Positions 31,771 through 55,962 of a stretch of 64,000 nt of DNA are shown here, one piece after another (the stretch's first letter is position 1; each line of letters opens with the position of its first letter). Below the pieces are notes generated by a model. The model had not been told where the DNA came from. It made no database searches and was given only the letters and a program-made list of their open reading frames with translations. A program made the translations under genes and the position numbers. The DNA comes from Sphaerochaeta halotolerans. GTDB lineage: Bacteria > Spirochaetota > Spirochaetia > Sphaerochaetales > Sphaerochaetaceae. Location: NCBI RefSeq assembly GCF_003429665.1, contig NZ_QUWK01000001.1:186001-250000 (forward strand), given 5' to 3'.

Positions 31771-31799
31771 AAACTATCGCAGAGTGAGCAAACTGTCAA
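31771..31799 (-). promoter_or_regulatory. Promoter of tRNA-Ala
   Basis: TTGACA (31794-31799), 17-base spacer, weak TAGTTT (31771-31776), overlapping the end of pyrG. The tRNA begins about 15 bases downstream. Confidence 0.4.
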
Positions 31800-33400
31800 C
31801 TCTTATGCGCAAGAGATGCAGCGATGAAGCCGCTGAAAAGTGGATGCGGGCGGTTGGGCCTGCTCTTGAACTCAGGGTGATATTGTACTCCGATGAAGAA
31901 CGGATGGGATGAAATCTCCACGGCTTCCACCAAAGTTTCATCAGGACTGGTGCCACAGATGACGAGGCCTTTTTCCTGAAGGATTTCCCTGAATGCATTG
32001 TTGAACTCATAGCGGTGCCGGTGACGTTCTCCAATACGCTCAGATTGCTTGTACACCTTGCTCATATGCGTATTCGGTTTTACCACACAAGGGTAAGAGC
32101 CAAGTCGCATGGTACCCCCCTTGGGGATGTTGCCCCGCTGGTCGGGCATCAGGGCGATGACTGGGTGCTGTGAATCAGGTGCAAATTCAGAGGAGTGTGC
32201 GTCTGGGTACCCTGCTACATGACGTGCGAATTCGATGACGGCGATTTGCATCCCCAGACATATTCCCAAATAGGGAATCTGTTGTTCTCTGGCGTACTGG
32301 GCTGAGAGGATTTTCCCTTCGATGCCTCGGTCTCCAAAGCCACCAGGGACCAGGATACCATCTGCCCCAGAGAGGAGCTTGTCGACCGTATTTTTAGTGA
32401 CCAATTCACTGTCCACCCAATCTATCTGGACTTCTGCACCGTGTTCCCATCCACCATGTTTGAGTGCCTCCATAACACTGAGGTATGCATCATGAAGCTG
32501 GATGTATTTTCCTACCAAGGCAATGCGAACCTGTTTTTTTGCACCTGCAATACGGGTGAGCATTGCCTCCCAATCAGAGAGATCGGGCTCTCTTGTTTGC
32601 AACTTCAGTTCCCTGCAGACAATCTCGTCAAGCTTCTCGGAGCGCAGCATCATCGGTGCTTCATAGAGTACCGGTACCGTCTTGTTTTCAATAACACAGT
32701 CGCGGTTTACATTGCAGAAAAGGGCAATCTTATCCTTGATGCTCTCCTCAAGCGGTTCGTCACTGCGAGTCACAATGATATCGGGGAAGATACCACTAGC
32801 CATCAACTCTTTCACCGAGTGCTGGGTTGGCTTGCTCTTGTGCTCTTTGCTACTCTTCAAATAGGGCACCAGCGTTACATGGATGAAAATACAGTTATCC
32901 TGTCCTACCTCGTGACCAATCTGTCTGATTGCCTCCAGAAAGGGTTGGCTTTCGATATCACCAGTGGTTCCCCCGATTTCGGTAATGATAACCTCGGCCT
33001 CGGTCTTCCGGTCCAATGCGTAGATAGCCTCTTTGATCTCTGTGGTTACATGGGGAATAATCTGAACAGTGGATCCCAGATAGGCTCCACTGCGTTCTTT
33101 AGACAGCACATTCCAATAGACCCTTCCGCTGGTGAGGTTGCTGTACTTGTTCAGATCCTCGTCAATGAAACGTTCATAGTGTCCCAAATCGAGGTCGGTT
33201 TCCGAACCATCCTCGGTTACGAATACTTCACCATGTTGATACGGACTCATTGTTCCAGGGTCTACGTTCATATAGGGGTCGAGTTTCTGGGCTGCAATCT
33301 TCAGTCCTCTTGCTTTCAAAAGTCTTCCCAGTGATGCTGCGGTTATGCCTTTCCCCAGACCCGAAACAACCCCGCCCGTCACAAAAATGTGTTTGGCCAT
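31796..33400 (-). CDS. pyrG: CTP synthase
   Basis: 534 residues from ATG 33400. N-terminal synthetase domain: [20 protein letters not shown] (P-loop), [11 protein letters not shown], and [20 protein letters not shown]-terminal glutaminase: [11 protein letters not shown] and nucleophile [13 protein letters not shown], with the terminal HPE in [11 protein letters not shown]. It aminates UTP to CTP with glutamine. AAGGAG lies upstream. It is the last gene of the glutamine/glutamate operon, 18 bp after the ANTAR gene, so CTP synthesis is probably co-regulated with glutamine supply. Confidence 0.98.
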
Positions 33401-33426
33401 AGATATCATTCTCCTTGTCTTTAGAT

Positions 33427-33999
33427 TTACATCTGATACGTCTTCAGTAGGGAGAGTGCAACGGCATACCGACTTTTGCGCTGGTCCATTGCCTGCTTTT
33501 CCATGTAGCGGTGTGCTTGCTGCTCATCCATACCAAGGTTTTCGATCAAGACCCATTTTGCCTTGTCGATGATTTTGATCTCTTCAATTTTCTTGTGGAG
33601 TTTCTCGTTCTCTGTATGCATTGCCGTGAGCCTTCGACGCATTGAGCGTGCGAGGCTAAGGGCTTGGAAGAACATCTGACGGATTACCGGCTTACTGACT
33701 ACAAGCACCCCTTGTTCGGAGAAGAGTGCTTCAGACTGTTCGAAGTATTGACTCCGTACCACAAGAATGGATCCTGCTAAACTCTGCTGAACAACCATCA
33801 CAGCAAGCTCTTCCCCTGATTCATCCAACAGTGGTGCATTGATGACAACCAAGTCGAGTTCCTGGTCGAGCACCAGTCTCCGAGCCTCTCCTGCGCTTAG
33901 ACAGTGAAGGAGCTCAATGGATCGGTCATACTCACGCATGAGGGAACACAATGAGTCACATCCTTTCTGTGTTGATGACACCACCAGCGCTCGAGGCAT
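33427..33999 (-). CDS. ANTAR-domain RNA-binding antiterminator with degenerate receiver
   Basis: 190 residues. Residues 1-120 have a CheY-like pattern, but the acidic pocket is VVSSTQ and the phospho-acceptor Asp is Asn ([14 protein letters not shown]), so ordinary phosphorylation is unlikely. A coiled coil (about 118-138) leads into an ANTAR domain (about 133-187: [38 protein letters not shown]). ANTAR domains bind paired RNA hexaloops and prevent termination. AGGAG precedes ATG 33999. It sits between glnA and pyrG in the gltB operon, whose leader, like those of glnN and asnB, has an A1/G4 hexaloop overlapping a terminator. Confidence 0.9.
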
Positions 34000-34010
34000 G
34001 GACACTCCTT

Positions 34011-35294
34011 CTACGTCGTCAGGAAATAGGCCTTTCGACTCGCTTCGAATGGGTCGACAGCCTTCTCATAGGACCTCCACTCTGCTCCCTTTGCCTCAAG
34101 AAAACAGGTAAGCAGACGCTCAGGGAGAATGGATTGTACAAAATCACTATGCTTTGCCAGCTCCATGGCTTCTTCCAAGGAGGAGGGGAGCATACGACCG
34201 GTTTGTTTCTGATACGCTGAGCCTTGGTACTCTTCCTCAAGGGGGAGGTCTCCACGAATACCTTCCAAAGCTGCAGTAAGCAGTAAGGTAATGGCAAGGT
34301 ACGGGTTGCAGGCTGGGTCGGCTGAACGCACCTCAATCCGTCGATACTCCCCACTGGTGTAGGGAATGCGGATGAGCAAGGAGCGGTTTGCCCGGCCCCA
34401 ACCAACATACTTGGGAGCTTCGAAGGACCCTAGTCGCTCGAAGGAGTTTGCAAGCGGGTTGAGGAAGAGGGATATTTCCTGGATTCTGTTCAGAATCCCT
34501 GCACTCATTGCTGCCTCAATCTTGCTGTATTGTTCCCCCTCAGCCTTGATGGATAGGTTGAAATGCAGACCGCTTCCACTCTCTCTTTGCATAGGTTTGG
34601 GGAGGAATGAGGCAAACAAACCGCTGCGGTCTGAGATGGTTTTTACTACTGATTTGAAGGTAATGAAGTTATCCGCCGCCTCAATAGGAGTTCCGTACTT
34701 GAAGTCAATCTCATTCTGCCCGGGACCTGACTCATGATGACTGCGCTCGGTGTAGAAACCCATCTGTTCAAGGGTAAGGCAGATTTCTCTACGTACATTC
34801 TCCCCCTTGTCCAGCGGCGCAACATCGAGGTAGGTGCCATCATCCAATGGCTGGTAGGTTGGTTTTCCCTCTTCATCAGTTTTGAAAAGGTAGAACTCAC
34901 ACTCGGGTCCTACTCCAAAGGAGTAACCCTGCAGAGAGGCTTTTCTCACTGTCTCTTGCAAGAGAGAACGCGTGTCTCCCTCGAAGAGCGTTCCATCGGG
35001 CCTTTTTATCGAGCAGAAGAACCGCACCACACGGCCCTGAGCCGGACGCCAGGGGAGGATGGAGAGGGTTGCAGGGTCGGGGAAGAGCAACAGGTCGCTC
35101 TCCTCAACTGAAAGGAAGCCTTTTACCGAGGATGCATCGAAACTGATGCCACTGGAAAAAGCCCGCTCCAGCTCACTTGCTGAGATGGAAATATTCTTGA
35201 TCTGTCCGAAAATATCGCAGAAGACCAGACGGGCAAACCGAACATCCTGTTCCTTGATGAACTGCATCACCTCTTGCTGGGTATTTCTCATCAT
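34011..35294 (-). CDS. glnA: Glutamine synthetase (type I family)
   Basis: 427 residues. Beta-grasp N-domain (VRFARLVFCDIFGQIKNIS), catalytic FGVGPECEFYLF with metal-binding Glu, ESGPGQNEIDFKYG, GSGLHFNLSI, and RIEVRSADPACNPYLA. It is shorter than enterobacterial GlnA and lacks the adenylylation Tyr loop, as in the I-alpha/GlnT-like group. A classical glutamine-forming role fits its place after the glutamate synthase genes, but GS-like amide ligases of this size cannot be excluded. GGGAGGAG precedes ATG 35294. Confidence 0.9.
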   Translation of the reverse strand: MMRNTQQEVMQFIKEQDVRFARLVFCDIFGQIKNISISASELERAFSSGISFDASSVKGFLSVEESDLLLFPDPATLSILPWRPAQGRVVRFFCSIKRPDGTLFEGDTRSLLQETVRKASLQGYSFGVGPECEFYLFKTDEEGKPTYQPLDDGTYLDVAPLDKGENVRREICLTLEQMGFYTERSHHESGPGQNEIDFKYGTPIEAADNFITFKSVVKTISDRSGLFASFLPKPMQRESGSGLHFNLSIKAEGEQYSKIEAAMSAGILNRIQEISLFLNPLANSFERLGSFEAPKYVGWGRANRSLLIRIPYTSGEYRRIEVRSADPACNPYLAITLLLTAALEGIRGDLPLEEEYQGSAYQKQTGRMLPSSLEEAMELAKHSDFVQSILPERLLTCFLEAKGAEWRSYEKAVDPFEASRKAYFLTT

Positions 35295-35310
35295 TCTTCT
35301 CCTCCCTCTG

Positions 35311-36036
35311 TCATACATGGGTATACATCATCCGATAGGGCGTGGTGCTGTTGGCACTCAGTACGTAAAAATGCGATGCAAGCAACTGTGCTTTATCGAG
35401 CTTGAAAAGGGCACAGTACTCATCCAGTAACTCAAACAGGAGCGCTTTGTCATCTTCATCGGCATCATGCACTGCAACCTGTGGTGGCAAGCCCTGAGGA
35501 AGTGTATCACAGCGTAAATAGATTGTGCCACCATGCATCCCTGTCCCACAGAAATATCCTACCGGAGCTTTCCCTTCTTGGTTCATACCCAACACAATGA
35601 TGGTACCACCTGCTTGGTACTCCCCAAGGAAACTGCCGGCCCTGTCGCCGATGATCAGAAGCGGTTGCCTCTCTTCGAACGCTTTCATATGAATGCCACA
35701 GCGGTAGCCAGCACTGTCGCGGATATAGAGCTTTCCCCCTCGCATCGCATATCCTGTCCCGTCCCCACAGGAGCCATGTACAATGATAGCGCCTTCGTTC
35801 ATGGTATCACCCGTTGCATCCTGTGCATTGCCGTTCACAATGAGCGTTGCACCGTCCAGATAGGAACCAAGACCATTGCCCGGAGTACCATTGATGGTAA
35901 TGGTCTTGTCTTTCTGAGCACACCCAATGTACCGCTGACCGGTTACTGAGGACAGTATAAATTGCTTTGCTTTACTCTCTCGTATTTGTTCATTCAATTG
36001 GCGGTATTGCATCATTCCTACGTCAATGTGTTTCAT
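35311..36036 (-). CDS. Glutamate synthase GXGXG-domain subunit (GltB domain 3)
   Basis: 241 residues of the right-handed beta-helix that forms the C-terminal domain of classical GltB: repeated G-x-x-G units such as GTPGNGLGSYLDGATLIVNG, NEGAIIVHGSCGDGTGYAM and GDRAGSFLGEYQAGGTIIVL. It is a structural part of the glutamate synthase complex. Here it is a separate polypeptide, the archaeal/Thermotoga-like arrangement. Its start overlaps the FAD subunit gene by 4 bp. Confidence 0.92.
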   Translation of the reverse strand: MKHIDVGMMQYRQLNEQIRESKAKQFILSSVTGQRYIGCAQKDKTITINGTPGNGLGSYLDGATLIVNGNAQDATGDTMNEGAIIVHGSCGDGTGYAMRGGKLYIRDSAGYRCGIHMKAFEERQPLLIIGDRAGSFLGEYQAGGTIIVLGMNQEGKAPVGYFCGTGMHGGTIYLRCDTLPQGLPPQVAVHDADEDDKALLFELLDEYCALFKLDKAQLLASHFYVLSANSTTPYRMMYTHV

Positions 36037-37265
36037 TGTGCCCTCCCAAGCTGTTCACTTCGCACCTTCTGTGCAAACGCCATCAAGGCCGGTTGTTCGC
36101 TGATCATGGCAAAGTCGAGTGTTCTGAGGTCTGTTCTGCTTCTAATCAGATTAGTATAGATTCCCCCTCGCGCAACCTGGTCCCCTATCAGGATGCATCC
36201 AACAAGGTGATCGTCCTTGATGAAAAGTCGCTTGTATCCTTTCTCCGTGGCAAAACAAAGATCCTCCCCTTGGTATATCCCGGCTGTAATGATATGCAAG
36301 CCGAAGAAGCCAATCGCATTCATTGCAATGGCATTCTCAAAGCGTTGCTCATTTTCAGCCATGGAATATCCAGCGGTCTCTCCCTGCATATAGGCATTCG
36401 GCAGCAGGGCAAGATTCCGTCTTTCCCCGCTCAAAAGCTCCCACCCCTCACTGCAGTCCCCTCCAGCCCAGATATGTGGATTGCTGGTTCTGCATGCTTG
36501 GTCGATGAGAATTCCCTTGTTGACAGCAAGTCCAGCATCCTTCGCCAATGCTATGTTTGGCTTTACCCCAACAGCCAGTACGAGGATATCGAACCCCACG
36601 ACCTTGCCACTGGTCAGGAGTGCCTCCTGGCCACAGAACTCACGGACGCTGTCTCCTAGATGGAAACGAATTCCTATCTGTTCCAGATGGGTCTGTACCC
36701 GCGCCGAGCCTTCTTCGTCGAGAATGCTGGAGAGTATTCTGTCTGCCAAATCGACAACCGTCACCGATTGTACACGTTCCAGAATTCCCTCGGCACACTT
36801 GAGTCCGATCAAACCGGCCCCGATGATGAGCACTCGGCTGCTGGGTTGCAGTTCTGCTTCAAGCTCCTTTGCATCAGATAAGGAGAGAAAGGTATGGCGA
36901 TGCTCCACCTCCTCAAGATTTTTCATAGGTGGGATGAAGGGAATGGAGCCTGTTGCTATGAGTAGCTTGTCATACTGCATGGATGAACCATCATCCAAGC
37001 GAAGTAGCTGTCCTTCCACTTCAATCTTTTCCACTCTCCTTCCTGTGAGCACCTGTACTCCATGCTTTTGGTAGAATCCTTCATCCCGATAGGTCATCTT
37101 CTGCTCATCAGTCTTACCTTGTAATAGGTAGGAGATGAGGGGCCGGGCATAGATGGGATGGTTTTCTTCCCCGATGACCGTGATAGCTCCTGTGGTATCA
37201 TGTTTTCGGATGGATTCAATGCAACCCACACTGGTGATGGAGTTTCCGATAATGACATACTGCAT
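36033..37265 (-). CDS. FAD-dependent pyridine-nucleotide oxidoreductase of glutamate synthase operon
   Basis: 410 residues. FAD site YVIIGNSITSVGCIESIRK, NAD(P) site RVLIIGAGLIGLKCAEGI, and FAD-closing IWAGGDCSEGW. It resembles rubredoxin/nitrite-reductase-type NAD(P)H reductases without a redox disulfide. It probably passes electrons from NAD(P)H, through the FeS protein next to it, to the FMN subunit, replacing the usual GltD. Start 37265 has GAGGAG upstream; the FeS gene ends 1 bp before it. Confidence 0.88.
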   Translation of the reverse strand: MQYVIIGNSITSVGCIESIRKHDTTGAITVIGEENHPIYARPLISYLLQGKTDEQKMTYRDEGFYQKHGVQVLTGRRVEKIEVEGQLLRLDDGSSMQYDKLLIATGSIPFIPPMKNLEEVEHRHTFLSLSDAKELEAELQPSSRVLIIGAGLIGLKCAEGILERVQSVTVVDLADRILSSILDEEGSARVQTHLEQIGIRFHLGDSVREFCGQEALLTSGKVVGFDILVLAVGVKPNIALAKDAGLAVNKGILIDQACRTSNPHIWAGGDCSEGWELLSGERRNLALLPNAYMQGETAGYSMAENEQRFENAIAMNAIGFFGLHIITAGIYQGEDLCFATEKGYKRLFIKDDHLVGCILIGDQVARGGIYTNLIRSRTDLRTLDFAMISEQPALMAFAQKVRSEQLGRAQ

Positions 37266-37266
37266 G

Positions 37267-37695
37267 CTACCGCTCCTCATAAACGATGGCCTGGTTTGGG
37301 CATCCTTGTACACAAACAGGGAGTCCATGGCTGTTTGTGGCACAGAGTTCGCACTTTTGCATAACCCCACTTTCACTTGGCATCAAGGCACCATAGGGGC
37401 ATGCCATGATGCAGCTGTAGCAACCGACGCACTTGTCCTGGTCGATAACGATCAGGCCATCTTTCTCTGTGATGGCACCGGCTATGCAGCTCTTCAGGCA
37501 CAATGGTTCACTGCAATGGCGGCAGTTCACCGCAAAGCTTACTGTCCCTCTCTGTTCCACCTGTATCCTCGGATGCAAGGGTTTGTCCTTCAATGCCTGC
37601 ACCATGTCGGAGAGTCCGCTGTTTGCATACGCACAGTAATATTCACAAAGATGACAGGCCAAACACCACTGTTCATTGACGTAGATCTTTTTCAT
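37267..37695 (-). CDS. 4Fe-4S ferredoxin-type electron-transfer subunit
   Basis: 142 residues. Cysteines group as CLACHLCEYYCAYA, CRHCSEPLCLKSC, CVGCYSCIMACPYG and CELC...CVQGCP, enough for four [4Fe-4S] clusters in a HycB/DmsB-like layout. It would carry electrons between the FAD reductase and the FMN glutamate synthase subunit. The order and tight spacing (1 bp and 9 bp to its neighbours) support a single complex. Confidence 0.9.
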   Translation of the reverse strand: MKKIYVNEQWCLACHLCEYYCAYANSGLSDMVQALKDKPLHPRIQVEQRGTVSFAVNCRHCSEPLCLKSCIAGAITEKDGLIVIDQDKCVGCYSCIMACPYGALMPSESGVMQKCELCATNSHGLPVCVQGCPNQAIVYEER

Positions 37696-37704
37696 CAGTT
37701 CCTC

Positions 37705-39210
37705 CTACGCCCCGGCATGTTTGATACCGAGGATGTTCAGCTCAGTCTCATGCAGGCCGATACCTCTGAGCATCAAGCGGTTTCCTCTGAGTGCCTCGAT
37801 GGAGTTTATCCCCATTCCTCCCATCATCTCCTTGAGTTCATGGTTCCAGGCAGTGATAAGGTTGACCAATCGCTCGCTACCCACCTCTGGGTTGAGACGT
37901 TTGACCAACTCGGGGTTCTGGGTTGCAATTCCCCAGTTGCACTTCCCGCTATGGCAGGTGCGGCAAAGATGGCAGCCAAGGGCGATTAGGGCACTGGTGG
38001 CTACATAGACCGCATCTGCACCCAAGGCTATGGCCTTCAATACATCACTGCTGCTGCGGATTGAACCACCTACCACAAGACTTACATTGCCGCGTATGCC
38101 TTCTTGACGCAGTCGTTCATCAACACTGGCCAAGGCCAGTTCGATGGGAATTCCGACATTGTCTCTTGTCCTGGCAGGAGCTGCCCCGGTTCCTCCTCGA
38201 AAGCCATCGATTGCGATGATGTCTGCACCGCTACGGGCAATACCACTGGCGATTGCACTGATGTTGTGTACTGCAGCCACTTTTACAATGATCGGTTTGG
38301 TATAGGCAGTCGCTTCCTTGAGGGCAAAGACCAGCTGTCTGAGGTCCTCAATGGAGTAGATGTCATGATGGGGTGCTGGGCTGATCGCATCACTGTGGAG
38401 CGGGATCATCCGGGTCTTTGAGATATCTTCCCCAATCTTGGAACCGGGAAGGTGTCCCCCGATGCCGGGCTTCGCTCCCTGTCCCATCTTGATCTCAATG
38501 GCTGCTCCTGCATTCAAGTAACCGGGGTGTACCCCAAATCTGCCGCTGGCTACCTGGACGATAGTGTTCTTTCCATACTGATAGAAGTCCTCATGCAAGC
38601 CCCCTTCACCGGTGTTGTAGTAGATACCGAGTTCTTGGGCAGCAAGCGCGAGGGATTTGTGGGCGTTGTAGGAGATGGACCCATAGGACATGGCACTGAA
38701 CATGATGGGAATCTCCAGCTTCAGCTGGGGAGCGGTCTTGGTGATTATTTTTCCATTTGCATCCCTCTTTATTACAGATTCTTTCTGCCCAAGGTAGGTT
38801 CTGGTCTCCATTGGCTCGCGAAGCGGGTCGATGGAAGGGTTGGTTACCTGGCTCGCATTCACCAGCATTTTGTCCCAGTAGACTGGATAGTCCTTGGGGG
38901 TGCCCATTGAGGCTAGCAGAACACCACCGCTCTCTGCCTGCCGATAGATATCCTGGATGACCTCTCCCTTCCAGTTTGCATTTTCCTTGAACGTATGGTC
39001 CGTCTTGACAATCTTCAGGGCACGGGTAGGGCAGAGGGAAACGCAGCGATGACAATTGACGCACTTGCTTTCATCAGCTTTCATGCGACCTGTGGCCTCA
39101 TCAAATGAGTGGACCTCATTCGCACATTGCCTTTCGCACACCCTGCAGGAGATGCATCTATCTTGGTTTCTTACTACTTCAAAGTCCGGATACAGGTAAT
39201 TGATGCCCAT
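37705..39210 (-). CDS. Glutamate synthase FMN/FeS subunit (GltB domain 2)
   Basis: 501 residues. An N-terminal ferredoxin domain (CISCRVCERQCANEV, CVNCHRCVSLCPTRAL) is fused to the FMN-binding synthase barrel: PIMFSAMSYGSISYNAHKS, GEGGLHEDFYQYG, GQGAKPGIGGHLPGSKI, IDGFRGGTGAAP, and the 3Fe-4S motif CHLCRTCHSGKCNWGIA. It reduces the 2-oxoglutarate/ammonia adduct to glutamate. ATG 39210 has AAGGAGG upstream and overlaps the amidotransferase gene by 32 bp. Confidence 0.95.
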   Translation of the reverse strand: MGINYLYPDFEVVRNQDRCISCRVCERQCANEVHSFDEATGRMKADESKCVNCHRCVSLCPTRALKIVKTDHTFKENANWKGEVIQDIYRQAESGGVLLASMGTPKDYPVYWDKMLVNASQVTNPSIDPLREPMETRTYLGQKESVIKRDANGKIITKTAPQLKLEIPIMFSAMSYGSISYNAHKSLALAAQELGIYYNTGEGGLHEDFYQYGKNTIVQVASGRFGVHPGYLNAGAAIEIKMGQGAKPGIGGHLPGSKIGEDISKTRMIPLHSDAISPAPHHDIYSIEDLRQLVFALKEATAYTKPIIVKVAAVHNISAIASGIARSGADIIAIDGFRGGTGAAPARTRDNVGIPIELALASVDERLRQEGIRGNVSLVVGGSIRSSSDVLKAIALGADAVYVATSALIALGCHLCRTCHSGKCNWGIATQNPELVKRLNPEVGSERLVNLITAWNHELKEMMGGMGINSIEALRGNRLMLRGIGLHETELNILGIKHAGA

Positions 39211-40327
39211 CTTGCCCTCCTTGTTGACCTTCCAGGGTGACGATGACCGGTTTCCCACCACTTGGGTACCAGAGCCGGTCGGGTTCAGGACAAATGACCC
39301 TGATAGCTGCTTCCTCACTGGCCAGGTAGACCCGGTCATCCTTCTCTGCTGCGACAAGGCTTCTGAGTTTGAGTCTGTCGTTGAGTGCCATCAGCCCTCC
39401 ACTGAAGCCGAGGATGATGGAGAATGGTCCGGTGATCAGCATGCTTGCAAAGGTATTTCTCAAATAGGTACACACCTCTTTTTCCTCTTGGGATTTTCTT
39501 TCAATGGTCGACCAGAAGGGAGCTGCAATGACATTGGCTACCTCTTCAAAACTCAAACCTTGTTTTCTGTGGAGGTAGTCGATCATATAGGTAATGACCT
39601 CGGTGTCGGTCATCAAGGTGCAGGAATAGCCGAACATCTCAATGAAACGCCGGTTTGCGTCATAACTCGATATTTCCCCATTGTGTACTACGCTGTAATC
39701 GAGCAGGCTGAAGGGGTGGGCTCCTCCCCACCAACCGGGGGTGTTGGTCGGGTAGCGACCATGGACGGTCCAACTGTATCCTTCGTAGTCGTCGAGACGA
39801 TAAAACTCACCAACGTCCTCCGGATAGCCCACTGCCTTGAAGACACCCATGTTCTTTCCGGATGAAAAGACATAGGCACCATCAATTTCTCGGTTTATCT
39901 TGATGACACATCTTGCGGTGTATTCATTTTCATCCAACTGACTGGATGCAAGTTTGGTAGGAAGTGGCGTGACGAAGTAACGCCAGATGAGTGGCTCATC
40001 AGTGATGGCGTGGTGCTTCGTGGTAGGAATTTTGGAGAGGTTGATCAAATCGAAGTGCTCTTCAAGGAAGTCCTCGCAACTCCGTTTTGCCTCACTGGAA
40101 TAATAAAAGACATGCAGCGCATAGAAGTCAGCATATTCGGGGTAGATGCCATACCCGGCAAAGCCTCCTCCGAGTCCGTTCGAGCGATCGTGCATGACAG
40201 CAATTGAGGAGATGGCTTCCCGTCCGGAAAATCGTTTTCCGCTCCGTGAAATAATGCCACTGATAGCACATCCGCTGGGAATGCGGACCTCTCCCTCCAA
40301 AGGTGTTCGTTGATGGTATCCGTTCAT
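39179..40327 (-). CDS. Glutamate synthase glutamine-amidotransferase subunit (GltB domain 1)
   Basis: 382 residues, class II (Ntn) amidotransferase. The nucleophile is expected to be Cys20 in IPSGCAISGIISR, preceded by a 19-residue propeptide, so processing is needed. Further motifs: HDRSNGLGGGFAGYGIYP, SWTVHGRYPTNTPGWWGGAHPFS, and DYSVVHNGEISSYDANRR. It releases ammonia from glutamine for the synthase subunit. AAGGAG lies ten bases before ATG 40327; longer in-frame starts run through the leader terminator. First gene of the operon, downstream of a hexaloop/terminator leader. Confidence 0.93.
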   Translation of the reverse strand: MNGYHQRTPLEGEVRIPSGCAISGIISRSGKRFSGREAISSIAVMHDRSNGLGGGFAGYGIYPEYADFYALHVFYYSSEAKRSCEDFLEEHFDLINLSKIPTTKHHAITDEPLIWRYFVTPLPTKLASSQLDENEYTARCVIKINREIDGAYVFSSGKNMGVFKAVGYPEDVGEFYRLDDYEGYSWTVHGRYPTNTPGWWGGAHPFSLLDYSVVHNGEISSYDANRRFIEMFGYSCTLMTDTEVITYMIDYLHRKQGLSFEEVANVIAAPFWSTIERKSQEEKEVCTYLRNTFASMLITGPFSIILGFSGGLMALNDRLKLRSLVAAEKDDRVYLASEEAAIRVICPEPDRLWYPSGGKPVIVTLEGQQGGQDGHQLPVSGL

Positions 40328-40345: not shown

Positions 40346-40407
40346 CGAAAAAAAGGCGCCCACCACAGATACCTTGCATACGCGAGGTACCTCTGATGGA
40401 CGCCTTT
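40346..40407 (-). terminator. Leader terminator (attenuator) of gltB operon
   Basis: Minus-strand arms at 40385-40407 and 40352-40374 pair over 23 positions (AAAGGCG...CGCCTTT, one mismatch and a few G-U pairs), ten-base loop, then seven T. It ends about 20 bases before the gltB1 start, so read-through is required for expression. Confidence 0.88.
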
Positions 40408-40412
40408 GTCCA
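40397..40412 (-). promoter_or_regulatory. Hexaloop hairpin TGGAC-AAAGGC-GTCCA, candidate ANTAR target (gltB)
   Basis: Five-base stem with a six-base loop carrying A1 and G4, the ANTAR recognition pattern. The loop and 3' arm are also the first bases of the terminator 5' arm, so hairpin and terminator exclude each other. Confidence 0.65.
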
Positions 40413-40426
40413 ATTGAATATGCCTT

Positions 40427-40455
40427 ATCATAGCGAAAATGCATGTGTTTGTCAC
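40427..40455 (-). promoter_or_regulatory. Promoter of gltB operon
   Basis: Minus-strand GTGACA, 17-base spacer, TATGAT (positions 40427-40432). The predicted start is about 40420, only about 8 nt before the hexaloop hairpin. Confidence 0.65.
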
Positions 40456-42568: not shown

Positions 42569-42596
42569 TTGACAGAAGTACCCGCTCTGGTGTAAA
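42569..42596 (+). promoter_or_regulatory. Promoter of glnN
   Basis: TTGACA, 16-base spacer, TGTAAA. The predicted start is about 42603, about 3 nt before the hexaloop hairpin. Confidence 0.55.
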
Positions 42597-42605
42597 AAGA
42601 AACAT

Positions 42606-42619
42606 CAGCAAAGGCGCTG
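42606..42619 (+). promoter_or_regulatory. Hexaloop hairpin CAGC-AAAGGC-GCTG, candidate ANTAR target (glnN)
   Basis: Four-base stem with the same AAAGGC loop as the gltB leader but different, compensating arm bases. The loop and 3' arm form the beginning of the terminator 5' arm. Confidence 0.65.
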
Positions 42620-42770: not shown

Positions 42771-44864
42771 ATGAAAGAACGAGCAGATCAGTATTTTGGG
42801 AGCATGGTATTTGGGTACGAGAAGATGAAAGAGTATCTCTCAAAAGACACCTACCGCCAGCTGAAAGAGACCATCAGGGTAGGAAAAGAACTGAATCTGG
42901 ATATTGCCAACCAGGTTGCCCATGCCATGAAGGAGTGGGCCTTGAGTGAAGGTGCTACCCACTATTGTCACTGGTTTCAGCCCATGACCAGCATTACCGC
43001 AGAAAAGCATGAGAGTTTTTTGGTTCCTTCCTCTGAAGGTATCGCCCTTATGGAGTTCAGTGGAAAAGAGTTGATCAAGGGAGAGCCTGATGCATCTTCG
43101 TTCCCGTCCGGTGGCCTCAGGGCAACCTTCGAGGCGCGTGGGTATACTGCTTGGGACCCTTCCAGTTATGCATTTATCAAGGAGAATACACTCTGTATCC
43201 CTACTGCGTTCTGCTCTTATAGCGGAGAAGTATTGGACAAGAAAACCCCATTGCTTCGTTCCATGGAAGTCATAAGCCGTGAGGCCATCAGGATTCTGAA
43301 ACTCTTTGGGCGAAGTGATGTGAAGCGTGTGGTGACCACGGTAGGACCTGAGCAGGAGTATTTCCTGGTTGATAAGGACCTCTACCTGCAACGCAAGGAC
43401 TTGATCCACACTGGTCGTACCCTTGTAGGGGCACGCCCCCCAAAGGGCCAGGAGTTGGAGGACCACTACTTCGGCAATCTCAAGAGTCGTGTTTCTGCCT
43501 TCATGCAGGAGCTGGATGAAGAACTTTGGAAACTTGGAATCTTTGCCAAGACAGAACATAACGAGGTTGCTCCCAGCCAGCATGAGCTTGCTCCCGTCTT
43601 TACCACAAGCAACCTTGCCGTCGATCAGAACCAGCTGACTATGGAAATAATGAAGAAAATTGCCAATAAGCATGGTCTTGTCTGTTTACTGCACGAGAAA
43701 CCGTTTGCTGGGGTGAACGGATCAGGGAAACACAACAACTGGTCGATCTCAACGGACACAGGGCTGAACCTTCTGGAACCGGGAGACAACCCAAAGGACA
43801 ATGCTCAGTTCCTGCTCTTCCTTGTAGCGGTAATCGCTGCTGTGGATGAGTATCAGGACCTGCTTCGCGTCTCGGTTGCCAGTGCAGGGAATGATCATCG
43901 CCTCGGTGCCAATGAGGCTCCTCCGGCCATCGTCAGCATGTTCCTTGGGGAAGAGTTGACTGAAATTCTTGATTCCCTTGTTGACGGAACCGATTATCCC
44001 AATAAAGAGAGATCCTCCATGCTGCTTGGAGTAAACCTCTTGCCTCCATTCCCCAGGGATACCACCGACCGAAACCGCACCAGTCCATTTGCCTTTACCG
44101 GCAACAAATTCGAGTTCCGTATGCTCGGTTCCTCGTTCTCTGTCTCTGGACCAAACTTTGTCCTGAATACGATAATTGCTGAGCAACTCTCCCGTTTTGC
44201 CAATCAGTTGGAGCAGGCAAAGGATTTCGAAAGTGAACTCTCTGCCTTGGTAAAAGAGACCTATAGCAAGCACAGAAGGATTGTGTTCAATGGCAACAAC
44301 TATGCACCTGAATGGATTGATGAGGCAAAGAGAAGGGGATTGCTGAACCTCGTAAGCACCCCTGAAGCCCTCCCCACCTTTATTCATGCGAAAAACATTG
44401 CGCTGTTTGAGAAGTTCGGGGTGCTCTCCTCATCAGAGATGCATAGTCGCTATGAGATTGTCCTGGAAAACTATTGCAAGACACTCAATATCGAGGCGCT
44501 CACGCTCGTCGATATGATGAGAAAACAAGTACTTCCTGCCCTGAGTGCTTTCAGCGGGGCACTGGCAAGAAGTTTTCTGGACAAGAAAGCAGCAGTATCC
44601 TCCCTTTCACTTTCCTATGAGGCAGGGCTGATTGCTGAGTTGAGTAATCTTGCCGATGGATTGGATAAGGAAGTAGCTCTGCTGGAACAGCAACTCCTGG
44701 AAGCGAGAATGGTAGAAGATATAAGCAGTGAAAGCTACTTCTATCATGATACAGTCCTTGCCCAGATGGCACAGGTTCGCTCTCTGTGTGATACTGCTGA
44801 ACTCCTCACTGATCAGCAGTACTGGCCCATTCCCACATACGAATCACTTCTGTATTCCGTGTAA
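42771..44864 (+). CDS. glnN: Glutamine synthetase type III
   Basis: 697 residues, the size of GSIII. Family motifs: HYCHWFQPMTSITAEKHESF, FPSGGLRATFEARGYTAWDP, VGPEQEYFLVDKDL, KTEHNEVAPSQHELAPVF, HEKPFAGVNGSGKHNNWS and RTSPFAFTGNKFEFRMLGSS. It makes glutamine from glutamate, ammonia and ATP and usually forms dodecamers. ATG 42771 has GGAGG seven bases upstream; a GTG 12 bases earlier is in frame but overlaps that site. It is the second glutamine synthetase in the window besides glnA and has its own attenuator leader. Confidence 0.97.
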   Translation: MKERADQYFGSMVFGYEKMKEYLSKDTYRQLKETIRVGKELNLDIANQVAHAMKEWALSEGATHYCHWFQPMTSITAEKHESFLVPSSEGIALMEFSGKELIKGEPDASSFPSGGLRATFEARGYTAWDPSSYAFIKENTLCIPTAFCSYSGEVLDKKTPLLRSMEVISREAIRILKLFGRSDVKRVVTTVGPEQEYFLVDKDLYLQRKDLIHTGRTLVGARPPKGQELEDHYFGNLKSRVSAFMQELDEELWKLGIFAKTEHNEVAPSQHELAPVFTTSNLAVDQNQLTMEIMKKIANKHGLVCLLHEKPFAGVNGSGKHNNWSISTDTGLNLLEPGDNPKDNAQFLLFLVAVIAAVDEYQDLLRVSVASAGNDHRLGANEAPPAIVSMFLGEELTEILDSLVDGTDYPNKERSSMLLGVNLLPPFPRDTTDRNRTSPFAFTGNKFEFRMLGSSFSVSGPNFVLNTIIAEQLSRFANQLEQAKDFESELSALVKETYSKHRRIVFNGNNYAPEWIDEAKRRGLLNLVSTPEALPTFIHAKNIALFEKFGVLSSSEMHSRYEIVLENYCKTLNIEALTLVDMMRKQVLPALSAFSGALARSFLDKKAAVSSLSLSYEAGLIAELSNLADGLDKEVALLEQQLLEARMVEDISSESYFYHDTVLAQMAQVRSLCDTAELLTDQQYWPIPTYESLLYSV

Positions 44865-53009: not shown

Positions 53010-54199
53010 GCATGCAAGAGACGATACAGACAGGAAAGCATTACTTATTAGATACTTACGCCCAGGTACCAGTGGTTTTTACCGGTGGAAAGGGTATGAA
53101 CCTCATTGATGAGGAGGGTAAGCACTATCTCGACTTTGTTGGCGGAATCGCCGTCAATGCCCTTGGATATGGTGACCCTGGTCTTTCTGATGCAATCAAC
53201 AAGGTTGTTTCCGAGGGACTCTTGCATTGTTCAAACCTGTACTACAACAAGGTAGGGGTGGAAGCGGCAAAGGAGCTCTGCACACTTGCAGAGATGGAGC
53301 GAGTGTTCTTTTGCAATAGCGGGGCGGAAGCCATTGAGGCTTCCCTCAAGCTTGCCAGGAAGTTCGGGCACCAGAGTGAGGCCCCCCGTAGCGAAATCAT
53401 CTCCATGATGAATTCATTTCATGGCAGGACCTACGGTGCCGTTACCGCAACTGGACAGAAGAAGTACCATAAGAACTTTGCACCCCTTCCGCAAGGGTTC
53501 AGCTACGCAGAGTTTAATAATCTTGAGAGTGTGAAAGCCCTCATTACCGAAAAGACCTGTGCCATCATTGTGGAGCCGATCCAGGGGGAGGGAGGAATTG
53601 TTCCCTCCGAACCTGCATTCCTGAGGGGGCTTCGCTCCCTCTGTGACGAGCACAATCTTTTGCTCATCTATGATGAGGTGCAGTGTGGGATGGGACGTAG
53701 TGGAAAGCCTTTTGCGTATCAGGCCTATGGCGTGAAACCCGATGTCCTTACCACGGCGAAGGCCTTGGCAGGTGGAGTCCCCTGTGGCGCAATGCTTACT
53801 ACAGGAAAAGCAAGCCACATCTTCACCCCTGGTGACCATGCTTCTACTTTTGGGGGCAATCCACTGGCAATGGCGGCAGTGAGAGAGATGGTCAGGCGTC
53901 TCAGCGATCCTGCTTTCTGCGCCCATGTCCAGGAGATGGGGGAGTATCTGAGAGCGAAGCTTGAGCAGCTGGTGGTTCGCTACCCTGATCTCTGCATTGC
54001 GGTCAGGGGCAAGGGACTGATCAATGGGTTGGTTCTCACCGTTCCTCCCCGTCAGGTGGTGGATGCCTGTTTTGCCAAGGGTGTGCTGGTGGCAAGTGCG
54101 GGAAGTGATGTGCTGCGCTTTGTTCCTCCCTTGGTTGTAGAGAAAAAAGATATTGATGCTGTACTCGCTGTAGTGGATGAGGTACTTGCAACTTTGTAA
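53006..54199 (+). CDS. argD: Acetylornithine aminotransferase
   Basis: 397 residues, class III PLP aminotransferase. FCNSGAEAIEASLKLARKFG, SMMNSFHGRTYGAVTATGQ, IYDEVQCGMGRSGKPFAYQ with the PLP-contacting Asp, and TTAKALAGGVPCGAML with the Schiff-base Lys. It converts N-acetylglutamate semialdehyde to N-acetylornithine. ATGA overlap with argB. The asnB promoter lies across its last codons. Confidence 0.95.
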   Translation: MSMQETIQTGKHYLLDTYAQVPVVFTGGKGMNLIDEEGKHYLDFVGGIAVNALGYGDPGLSDAINKVVSEGLLHCSNLYYNKVGVEAAKELCTLAEMERVFFCNSGAEAIEASLKLARKFGHQSEAPRSEIISMMNSFHGRTYGAVTATGQKKYHKNFAPLPQGFSYAEFNNLESVKALITEKTCAIIVEPIQGEGGIVPSEPAFLRGLRSLCDEHNLLLIYDEVQCGMGRSGKPFAYQAYGVKPDVLTTAKALAGGVPCGAMLTTGKASHIFTPGDHASTFGGNPLAMAAVREMVRRLSDPAFCAHVQEMGEYLRAKLEQLVVRYPDLCIAVRGKGLINGLVLTVPPRQVVDACFAKGVLVASAGSDVLRFVPPLVVEKKDIDAVLAVVDEVLATL

Positions 54200-54214
54200 A
54201 AGAGCAGGTAGTAT
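54186..54214 (+). promoter_or_regulatory. Promoter of asnB
   Basis: TTGCAA, 17-base spacer, TAGTAT, across the argD stop. The predicted start is about 54221, 2 nt before the hexaloop hairpin. Confidence 0.5.
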
Positions 54215-54222
54215 CCTTCCAA

Positions 54223-54236
54223 GAACAAAGACGTTC
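54223..54236 (+). promoter_or_regulatory. Hexaloop hairpin GAAC-AAAGAC-GTTC, candidate ANTAR target (asnB)
   Basis: Four-base stem with loop AAAGAC, again A1 and G4. As in the gltB and glnN leaders the loop is the first part of the terminator 5' arm. Confidence 0.6.
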
Positions 54237-54268: not shown

Positions 54269-54285
54269 ACGTTTGGAGGTATATG

Positions 54286-55962
54286 ATGTGTGGATTTGTA
54301 GGAATGTTTGACATCCAGCGTAGTGCGAAGGACTTTCGTTCCCAGATTCTTTCCATGTCAGGGAAGATTCGTCACCGTGGTCCCGATTGGTCGGGGGTGT
54401 ATGAAGGGGAGAAGGCCATCATCAGTCATGAACGACTAGCTATTGTCGACCCACTCTCAGGAGGTCAGCCGCTGTATAGCGCAGACAGGAATGTGGTGTT
54501 GGCTGTCAACGGTGAAATCTACAATCATCAGCAGATCAGAAAAAAGTATGAGGGAGTCTATGCGTTTCAGACGCAGAGTGACTGCGAAGTCATCCTGGCT
54601 CTGTATCAGGAGAAAGGCCCTGACTTCCTTGAGGATTTGAATGGTATCTTTGCTTTTGCCCTCTATGACCAGAAAAAGGATGTGTACCTCATTGCCCGTG
54701 ACCATATCGGTATCATTCCTCTCTACCAAGGGTGGGATGACCAGGGGCACTATTATGTGGCAAGTGAGTTGAAAGCCTTGGAAGGAACCTGTAGTGCTAT
54801 TGAACTCTTTCCTCCTGGACAATCTTACTACAGTCCTGAGCGAACACTCAAGAAGTGGTATGAACGTTCTTGGACCAGGTATGATGCGGTCAAGGACAAT
54901 GGTGGTACGATAGAACAGGTTCGTGAGGCACTGGAAGCAGCGGTAAAGCGTCAGCTGATGAGTGATGTTCCCTACGGGGTGTTGCTCTCCGGCGGTTTGG
55001 ACAGTTCCATCATTGCGGCAATCACCTCAAAATATGCACAAAAACGTGTGGAAAGTGCCGATACGGAGGATGCCTGGTGGCCACGGCTCCACTCATTCGC
55101 CATTGGACTCGAAGGTTCTCCCGACCTGAAAGCTGCACGCATTGCAGCTGATCATCTCAAGACGGTGCATCATGAGGTACATTTCACCATCCAGGAGGCT
55201 CTCGATGCCCTCAGTGATGTCATCTACCATCTGGAGACCAGTGATATCACCACGGTCAGGGCAGCAACACCGATGTACCTGCTTGCCCGCGTAATCCGCT
55301 CAATGGGGATCAAGATGGTGCTTAGTGGAGAAGGAAGTGATGAACTCTTCGGTGGGTATCTCTATTTTCATAAGGCACCCAATGCCAGGGAGTTCCATGA
55401 GGAGACAGTCAGGAAGCTCTCCAAGCTGCATCTCTATGACTGCCTGAGGGCGAACAAGTCATTGGCTGCTTGGGGTGTTGAGGGACGGGTACCGTTCCTG
55501 GACAAGGAGTTCATCGATGTTGCGATGAATTTGAACCCTGATATGAAGCTCTGCCCGGTTGTTGGGGAGAACAAGCGCATAGAGAAGTGGATTCTTCGAG
55601 AGGCGTTCAAGGAGTATCTTCCAGATGAGATTGTCTGGAGGCAGAAGGAGCAGTTCAGTGACGGGGTAGGTTATAGCTGGATTGATACGTTGAAACAGCT
55701 TACCAGCTCTTTGGTCAGCGATGAACAGTTTGCCTTGGCGGCAAAACGCTACCCGATCCACACCCCTGCCACCAAGGAGGAGTACTACTACCGTACCCTT
55801 TTTGCTTCCCACTTCCCCAGTGAGAGTGCGGCGCGCTGCGTTCCACGGGAAGATTCTGTTGCCTGTTCCACGGCGACGGCTCTGGAATGGGATCGCGCTT
55901 TCAAGGCAATGAATGAACCGAGTGGGAGAGCGGTAGCCGGGGTGCATGAGTCCGCCTACTAG
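54286..55962 (+). CDS. asnB: Asparagine synthase B, glutamine-hydrolysing
   Basis: 558 residues. The class II glutaminase starts directly with Cys2 (MCGFVGMFDIQ) and has RHRGPDWSGVY and the AVNGEIYNHQQIRKKY segment. The synthetase half has the ATP PP-motif VLLSGGLDSSIIAAI and LSGEGSDELFGGYLYF. It makes asparagine from aspartate with glutamine nitrogen. The second of two adjacent ATGs (54286) is chosen because Cys must follow the initiator Met. GGAGG lies upstream. Confidence 0.97.
   Translation: MCGFVGMFDIQRSAKDFRSQILSMSGKIRHRGPDWSGVYEGEKAIISHERLAIVDPLSGGQPLYSADRNVVLAVNGEIYNHQQIRKKYEGVYAFQTQSDCEVILALYQEKGPDFLEDLNGIFAFALYDQKKDVYLIARDHIGIIPLYQGWDDQGHYYVASELKALEGTCSAIELFPPGQSYYSPERTLKKWYERSWTRYDAVKDNGGTIEQVREALEAAVKRQLMSDVPYGVLLSGGLDSSIIAAITSKYAQKRVESADTEDAWWPRLHSFAIGLEGSPDLKAARIAADHLKTVHHEVHFTIQEALDALSDVIYHLETSDITTVRAATPMYLLARVIRSMGIKMVLSGEGSDELFGGYLYFHKAPNAREFHEETVRKLSKLHLYDCLRANKSLAAWGVEGRVPFLDKEFIDVAMNLNPDMKLCPVVGENKRIEKWILREAFKEYLPDEIVWRQKEQFSDGVGYSWIDTLKQLTSSLVSDEQFALAAKRYPIHTPATKEEYYYRTLFASHFPSESAARCVPREDSVACSTATALEWDRAFKAMNEPSGRAVAGVHESAY

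Follow-up and report, generated by a model that had tools for sequence, protein, structure and literature searches.

A probable ANTAR-type attenuator with a single hexaloop hairpin before the glutamate synthase operon of Sphaerochaeta halotolerans

The gltB operon and its leader

The window, a stretch of 64,000 nt of the Sphaerochaeta halotolerans genome, carries on its minus strand a run of seven ORFs: gltB1, gltB2, an FAD oxidoreductase gene, gltB3, glnA, the gene of an ANTAR protein and pyrG (Table 1). An earlier sequence-only reading had counted eight genes down to pyrG. The closest named relative, at 82% identity, is a Sphaerochaeta MAG (L032). In some family genomes (L020, L021, L026 and L031) the match to gltB1 crosses one in-frame TGA, and possibly extends past the true stop.

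Table 1. Features of the gltB, GSIII and asnB loci, in positions of the window
Feature	Position	Strand	Basis
Predicted gltB operon promoter: -35 GTGACA 40455-40450, 17 nt, -10 TATGAT 40432-40427	40427..40455	-	sequence and conservation
P2 antiterminator hairpin TGGAC[AAAGGC]GTCCA, hexaloop with A1 and G4	40397..40412	-	pattern and covariation
Intrinsic terminator followed by a T-run; P2 overlaps its 5' arm	40352..40407	-	folding and covariation
gltB1, glutamate synthase amidotransferase subunit, class-II GATase; first gene	39179..40327	-	
gltB2, glutamate synthase domain with 4Fe-4S; true start probably just past gltB1	37705..39357	-	
FAD/NAD oxidoreductase	36033..37376	-	
gltB3, GXGXG domain subunit of glutamate synthase	35311..36036	-	
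glnA, type-I glutamine synthetase	34011..35318	-	
ANTAR protein gene: pseudo-receiver, coiled coil, ANTAR domain; sixth gene	33427..34005	-	
pyrG, CTP synthase; final gene of the run	31796..33409	-	
Putative GSIII promoter: TTGACA 42569-42574, weak -10 (TGTAAA/TAAAAA)	42569..42598	+	sequence; TTGACA kept in genus
Second P2 hairpin CAGC[AAAGGC]GCTG, before GSIII	42606..42619	+	pattern
Terminator overlapping GSIII P2	42609..42654	+	pattern and folding
Type-III glutamine synthetase (GSIII)	42771..44864	+	
Predicted asnB promoter TTGCAA-17-TAGTAT	54186..54214	+	sequence; position kept in genus
Third P2 hairpin GAAC[AAAGAC]GTTC, before asnB	54223..54236	+	pattern
Terminator overlapping asnB P2	54226..54274	+	pattern and folding
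Asparagine synthase asnB	54283..55962	+	

The same reading had placed a promoter GTGACA-17-TATGAT before gltB1, with a start near 40420 and a leader of about 93 nt, and here its coordinates and geometry proved correct, the predicted start being consistent with 93 nt to the gltB1 ATG at 40327. The promoter matches the consensus at 10 of 12 positions and is the top site within 10 kb; a site of this quality is unremarkable taken alone (9 found, 10.9 expected). Nine leaders, from the genus and its named relative, keep it amid drifting flanks. Equally exact was the overlap that had been drawn between the P2 hairpin and the 5' arm of the terminator, which share the 11 bases 40407-40397.

RNA folding gave the terminator, with about 24 pairs, as the minimum free energy fold of this leader (-40.8 to -42.3 kcal/mol, z -6.0 to -7.6), and no shuffled sequence was equally stable. 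The P2 stem is longer than the 3 bp that we took as the minimum, and its hexaloop carries A1 and G4, the bases read by ANTAR proteins (PMC3369931); the overlap of P2 with the terminator's 5' arm is likewise the arrangement of an ANTAR attenuator. No Rfam family matched the leader above its gathering score, the weak matches all lying below the cut-off. We consider it very likely that the gltB leader is an ANTAR-type transcription attenuator whose transcript bears just one hexaloop hairpin, right at its 5' end.

Two alternative folds and a probable lack of P1

From 110 homologous gltB1 loci we collected 78 leaders with a hexaloop hairpin overlapping a terminator, which reduce to 62 distinct core sequences. 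Among these, two-sided changes number 39 in the P2 stem (14.3 after shuffling) and 58 in the terminator arm (15.9 after shuffling); in neither case did any of 500 shuffles reach the observed number. Pairing was 92% for the P2 stem (29-47% with slid partners) and 95% for the terminator arm (37-44% with slid partners), percentages which are partly built in given that the leaders were picked for having P2 and a terminator, although the choice among pair types is unaffected by this. Outside the search criteria, the A at loop position 2, a purine at loop position 5 and the C-G closing pair are each invariant (62/62). In a promoter-anchored test that did not depend on pairing, the first AANGR past the -10 box was often a site other than the P2 loop. 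Because both stems covary, one and the same P2 3' strand has retained two partners, and judging from the compared leaders the two folds are genuinely alternative, as the claim that antiterminator and terminator are mutually exclusive had supposed.

In all three leaders of the window (gltB, GSIII and asnB), the terminator state was 11-15 kcal/mol more stable than the state in which P2 was forced. P2 alone reached only -1.6 to -5.6 kcal/mol, against -33 to -82 kcal/mol for the terminator-formed leader folds, and such a weak hairpin might be the mere by-product of the palindromic base of a fixed terminator, which would attenuate the operon constitutively by polarity with no regulator. We regard this as very improbable, since the 5' strand of P2, although no part of the terminator, is conserved and covaries, loop positions A1, A2, G4 and R5 are invariant, and the element goes together with nitrogen genes and with the glnA-ANTAR pair.

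ANTAR antitermination is generally accepted to require two hairpins. In the eut leaders, both P1 and P2 are needed, which has been tied to dimerisation (PMC3369931; PMC8934654), and the linker between them measures 5-12 nt, later surveys allowing as much as 25 nt. In the gltB leader we found no second hairpin upstream at such a short linker, and the predicted start lies too close to P2 for one. For this reason the leader has been filed as a variant and not as a classical dual-hairpin member. The same arrangement is common among its relatives. In 59 of the 78 gltB leaders, which come from spirochaetes and Clostridia, the gap from a predicted -10 box to P2 is 5-23 nt, where shuffled sequences would give 3.55 such leaders, and in 25 of 31 GSIII leaders it is 8-12 nt. 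In this gap, none of the 55 distinct leaders with such a close promoter carries a G4 hexaloop hairpin, and only seven of them offer at least 12 nt of room. With the promoters as predicted, P1 has no space in close-promoter leaders.

Four leaders from one sister genus (L016-L019) differ in having the promoter 48-67 nt from P2, and in these a P1 is present, for example AGAC[AATGAA]GTCT. The wide gap and P1 occur together here, in support of the promoter calls and likewise of a lack of P1 in the other leaders. The linker between P1 and P2 in these four leaders is 25-40 nt, exceeding that of the eut leaders.

The gltB leader might still be a classical two-hairpin leader if its true start lay further upstream and a P1 overlapping the -10 box were transcribed. 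P1 and P2 are present in every characterised ANTAR terminator, the sister-genus leaders have P1 as well, and a 4-bp hexaloop hairpin is possible in TATGATAAGGCATA. However, the candidate over the -10 box, TATG-ATAAGG-CATA, was rejected: its loop has no G4, and it is not conserved, being lost in the relatives L009-L012, which keep the -10-like bases. Besides the empty gaps of the close-promoter leaders, the distance from promoter to P2 is largely bimodal, 5-23 nt without P1 and 48-67 nt with it. Accordingly a hidden P1 seems to us unlikely, and a single hairpin remains the preferred reading.

Nor was a convincing P1 seen at the elements in the gap between GSIII and amtB, although room is unlimited there. 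As an independent two-hairpin control we turned to eut genes, without success: no convincing leader lay around EutP in either of two single-hairpin genomes, and among 31 eutP loci an ANTAR-like leader was found in L212 only, where the promoter is 78 nt off and an intervening G4-loop hairpin can be drawn by eye. On the whole we think it probable that single-hexaloop ANTAR antiterminators form a widespread class in spirochaetes and Clostridia, serving GS/GOGAT, GSIII, asnB and amtB genes, either at the 5' end of the transcript or in the GSIII-amtB gap.

The ANTAR protein and the other nitrogen leaders

The protein encoded by the sixth gene has 192 residues, matches PF03861 with E = 5e-16 and is encoded by the sole ANTAR gene in the 2.93-Mb genome, so that the cognate protein of the leader would come from its own operon. 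Its nearest solved relatives are Rv1626, EutV, AmiR and NasR, and its AlphaFold model (mean pLDDT 95) has RNA-bound EutV as top Foldseek match. The RNA-contact residues K150, E161 and M173, equivalent to K149, E160 and M172 of EutV, are invariant in 76 proteins, and the position of EutV Y164 is occupied by His (H165) in all 76 of these relatives, as in AmiR. Three other EutV contacts are changed: R142 to Ile, R168 to Glu and R177 to Ser. The receiver lacks the phospho-accepting Asp and has Asn at position 56; in the 76 relatives this position is Asn in 59 and Asp in five. Because Asn replaces Asp, control by phosphorylation of this residue is unlikely. Perhaps a partner protein, which may be the GlnA encoded just upstream, holds the ANTAR protein instead, an idea that follows from the receiver being without the Asp that is normally phosphorylated. 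That GlnA would do the sensing is suggested by the linkage of glnA with the ANTAR gene, and by AmiC-AmiR and NasS-NasT.

Of 100 genomes in the family, 50 had both gltB1 and ANTAR, two and four had one of them alone, and 44 had neither (Fisher 4e-21, the genomes being related and so not independent). The operon's own ANTAR gene, the covariation of both RNA partners and this co-occurrence together support the sequence-only reading in its proposal of an ANTAR regulator for the GS/GOGAT operon. In 41 of 51 loci glnA is the neighbour of ANTAR, and the pair stays together even where displaced from its usual place (L036, L039). A P2 leader was found in 36 of the 41 loci with adjacent glnA-ANTAR versus none of the ten where ANTAR occurs without glnA (p = 2e-7); of the five glnA-ANTAR loci in which our finder saw no P2, two (L101 and L106) show GAAC[AAAGGC]GTTC by eye. 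Proximity of ANTAR to gltB was, by itself and with the short flanks available, weakly associated with a P2 leader (35/16/16/13); the comparisons that inform are those by genome and by glnA linkage. Eight loci (L057, L059, L062, L063, L075, L102, L110 and L111) have ANTAR homologues of 25-33% identity directly after gltB3, with no glnA, and their gltB leaders are without P2.

A search of the whole genome for P2 plus terminator returned three places, all before nitrogen genes and all within the window, whereas the reversed pattern used as control returned one. Two of them, before GSIII and asnB, had escaped the sequence-only reading, as had the absence of a canonical P1. A fourth copy, ACGTC[AAGGGC]GATGT with a terminator, lies about 110 nt before an amtB match (L172/L178, G000:C46:56658-56690, minus strand), and patterns with an AATGRC loop gave nothing convincing in this genome. 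The gltB, GSIII and asnB leaders were found again in relatives within the genus, and in Clostridia the P2-plus-terminator element precedes GSIII, which is divergent from gltB, and also occupies the GSIII-amtB gap. Bare pattern counts for the family were left out, the backwards-pattern control being noisy at that scale. All four targets, gltB, GSIII, asnB and amtB, are steps of ammonium uptake or assimilation. GSIII, asnB and amtB are probably controlled in trans by the same ANTAR protein, which would also amplify its own synthesis.

The four copies in the genome also bear on whether the inverted repeat could serve a DNA-binding repressor as its operator at +1, with a terminator that is only incidental. 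A palindrome right after the -10 box does stand at the usual position of an operator. However, the copies differ in their arms (GGAC, CAGC, GAAC and ACGTC) and tolerate G-U pairs while the loop is nearly constant, and variable arms around a near-constant loop point to recognition of a loop in RNA and not to a DNA half-site. Furthermore, the repeat covaries with the terminator arm, and the copies in the GSIII-amtB gap have no promoter nearby. We find an operator extremely improbable and retain the RNA attenuator.

Some related elements depart from the arrangement before gltB. In L034, L041, L042, L043, L058, L104 and others, the element lies inside an operon, in the GSIII-amtB gap, with no nearby promoter. 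In L096, L097, L098 and L109, two tandem P2-plus-terminator modules about 60-80 nt apart are found upstream of GSIII, on the minus strand and about 170-320 nt before gltB1, and they look like two attenuators in series. In L116 (G049), the leader GTTGC[AAAGGC]GCAAT with a terminator, and with TTGACA upstream, precedes the gene of an amino-acid ABC substrate-binding protein.

A proposed mechanism and comparison with known systems

We propose that by default the leader RNA would form the terminator, and, from the energies, that transcription would halt about 70-75 nt from the start. Active ANTAR protein would grip the A1/G4 hexaloop as P2 emerges, and P2 held in this way would keep its 3' strand and loop bases away from the terminator. 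What is left of the terminator would be its upper hairpin, no longer abutting the U tract, and the polymerase would read through into the GOGAT-GS-ANTAR-pyrG operon, including the ANTAR gene itself. For the trapping of P2, a median of roughly 43 nt of transcription would be available, counted from the end of P2 to the U tract. We infer both protein binding to P2 and relief of termination. The switch is likely to be on when nitrogen is short, an expectation taken from the ANTAR protein NitR of Clostridium saccharobutylicum, which induces GS/GOGAT genes under nitrogen limitation, as cited in PMC6316151.

If every ANTAR protein worked like EutV, a single hairpin should fail. The structure of RNA-bound EutV leaves the two-hairpin rule unexplained, both loops being too many for one dimer, and its authors called for a bioinformatic survey of single-hexaloop sites, which they expected only where the transcribing polymerase sets no time limit (PMC8934654). 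That limit applies here, because the single-hexaloop leaders are terminators. Should the class be real, ANTAR antitermination does not depend on P1 in general, and an ANTAR subfamily that is not phosphorylated engages RNA in a mode of its own. About 90 nt of leader and one protein would then offer a simple natural system for asking whether P1 is a recruitment site. In a literature search confined to papers free of subscription, we found no single-hexaloop terminator leader, no account of its spread in Clostridia and spirochaetes or of its tie to an ANTAR protein with an Asn receiver, and no match for ANTAR with Sphaerochaeta.

The eut leaders of Enterococcus faecalis, controlled by EutV/EutW, resemble the gltB leader in their P2 with an A1/G4 hexaloop and a 3' strand overlapping the terminator (PMC3369931, PMC8934654), and EutV shares with the present protein the receiver, coiled coil and ANTAR domain in the same fold. 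They differ in needing P1 and P2 at tight spacing where one hairpin is found here, and EutV is activated by phosphorylation whereas the present receiver has Asn instead of Asp. In AmiR-AmiC (amiE) and NasT-NasS (nas), the ANTAR protein is under a partner protein and not a kinase, the likeness that we propose here, and AmiR also has His at the position stacking on G4. In contrast to those systems, no AmiC-like or NasS-like partner adjoins the ANTAR gene, whose neighbour is GlnA.

Control of nitrogen genes by ANTAR proteins, glutamate synthase included, is already known: in Desulfotomaculum reducens, ANTAR targets precede glutamate synthase genes, with the same kind of target gene and of control (PMC3369931). 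These targets were found using a two-hairpin model, by which leaders like that of gltB would score low or be missed. Such leaders suggest that searches of that type have overlooked a part of the anaerobes' nitrogen regulon. NitR likewise belongs to the ANTAR regulators and is tied to genes for glutamine synthetase and glutamate synthase, and antitermination has been proposed for it; the present operon differs in being spirochaetal, in its split GOGAT and in including pyrG.
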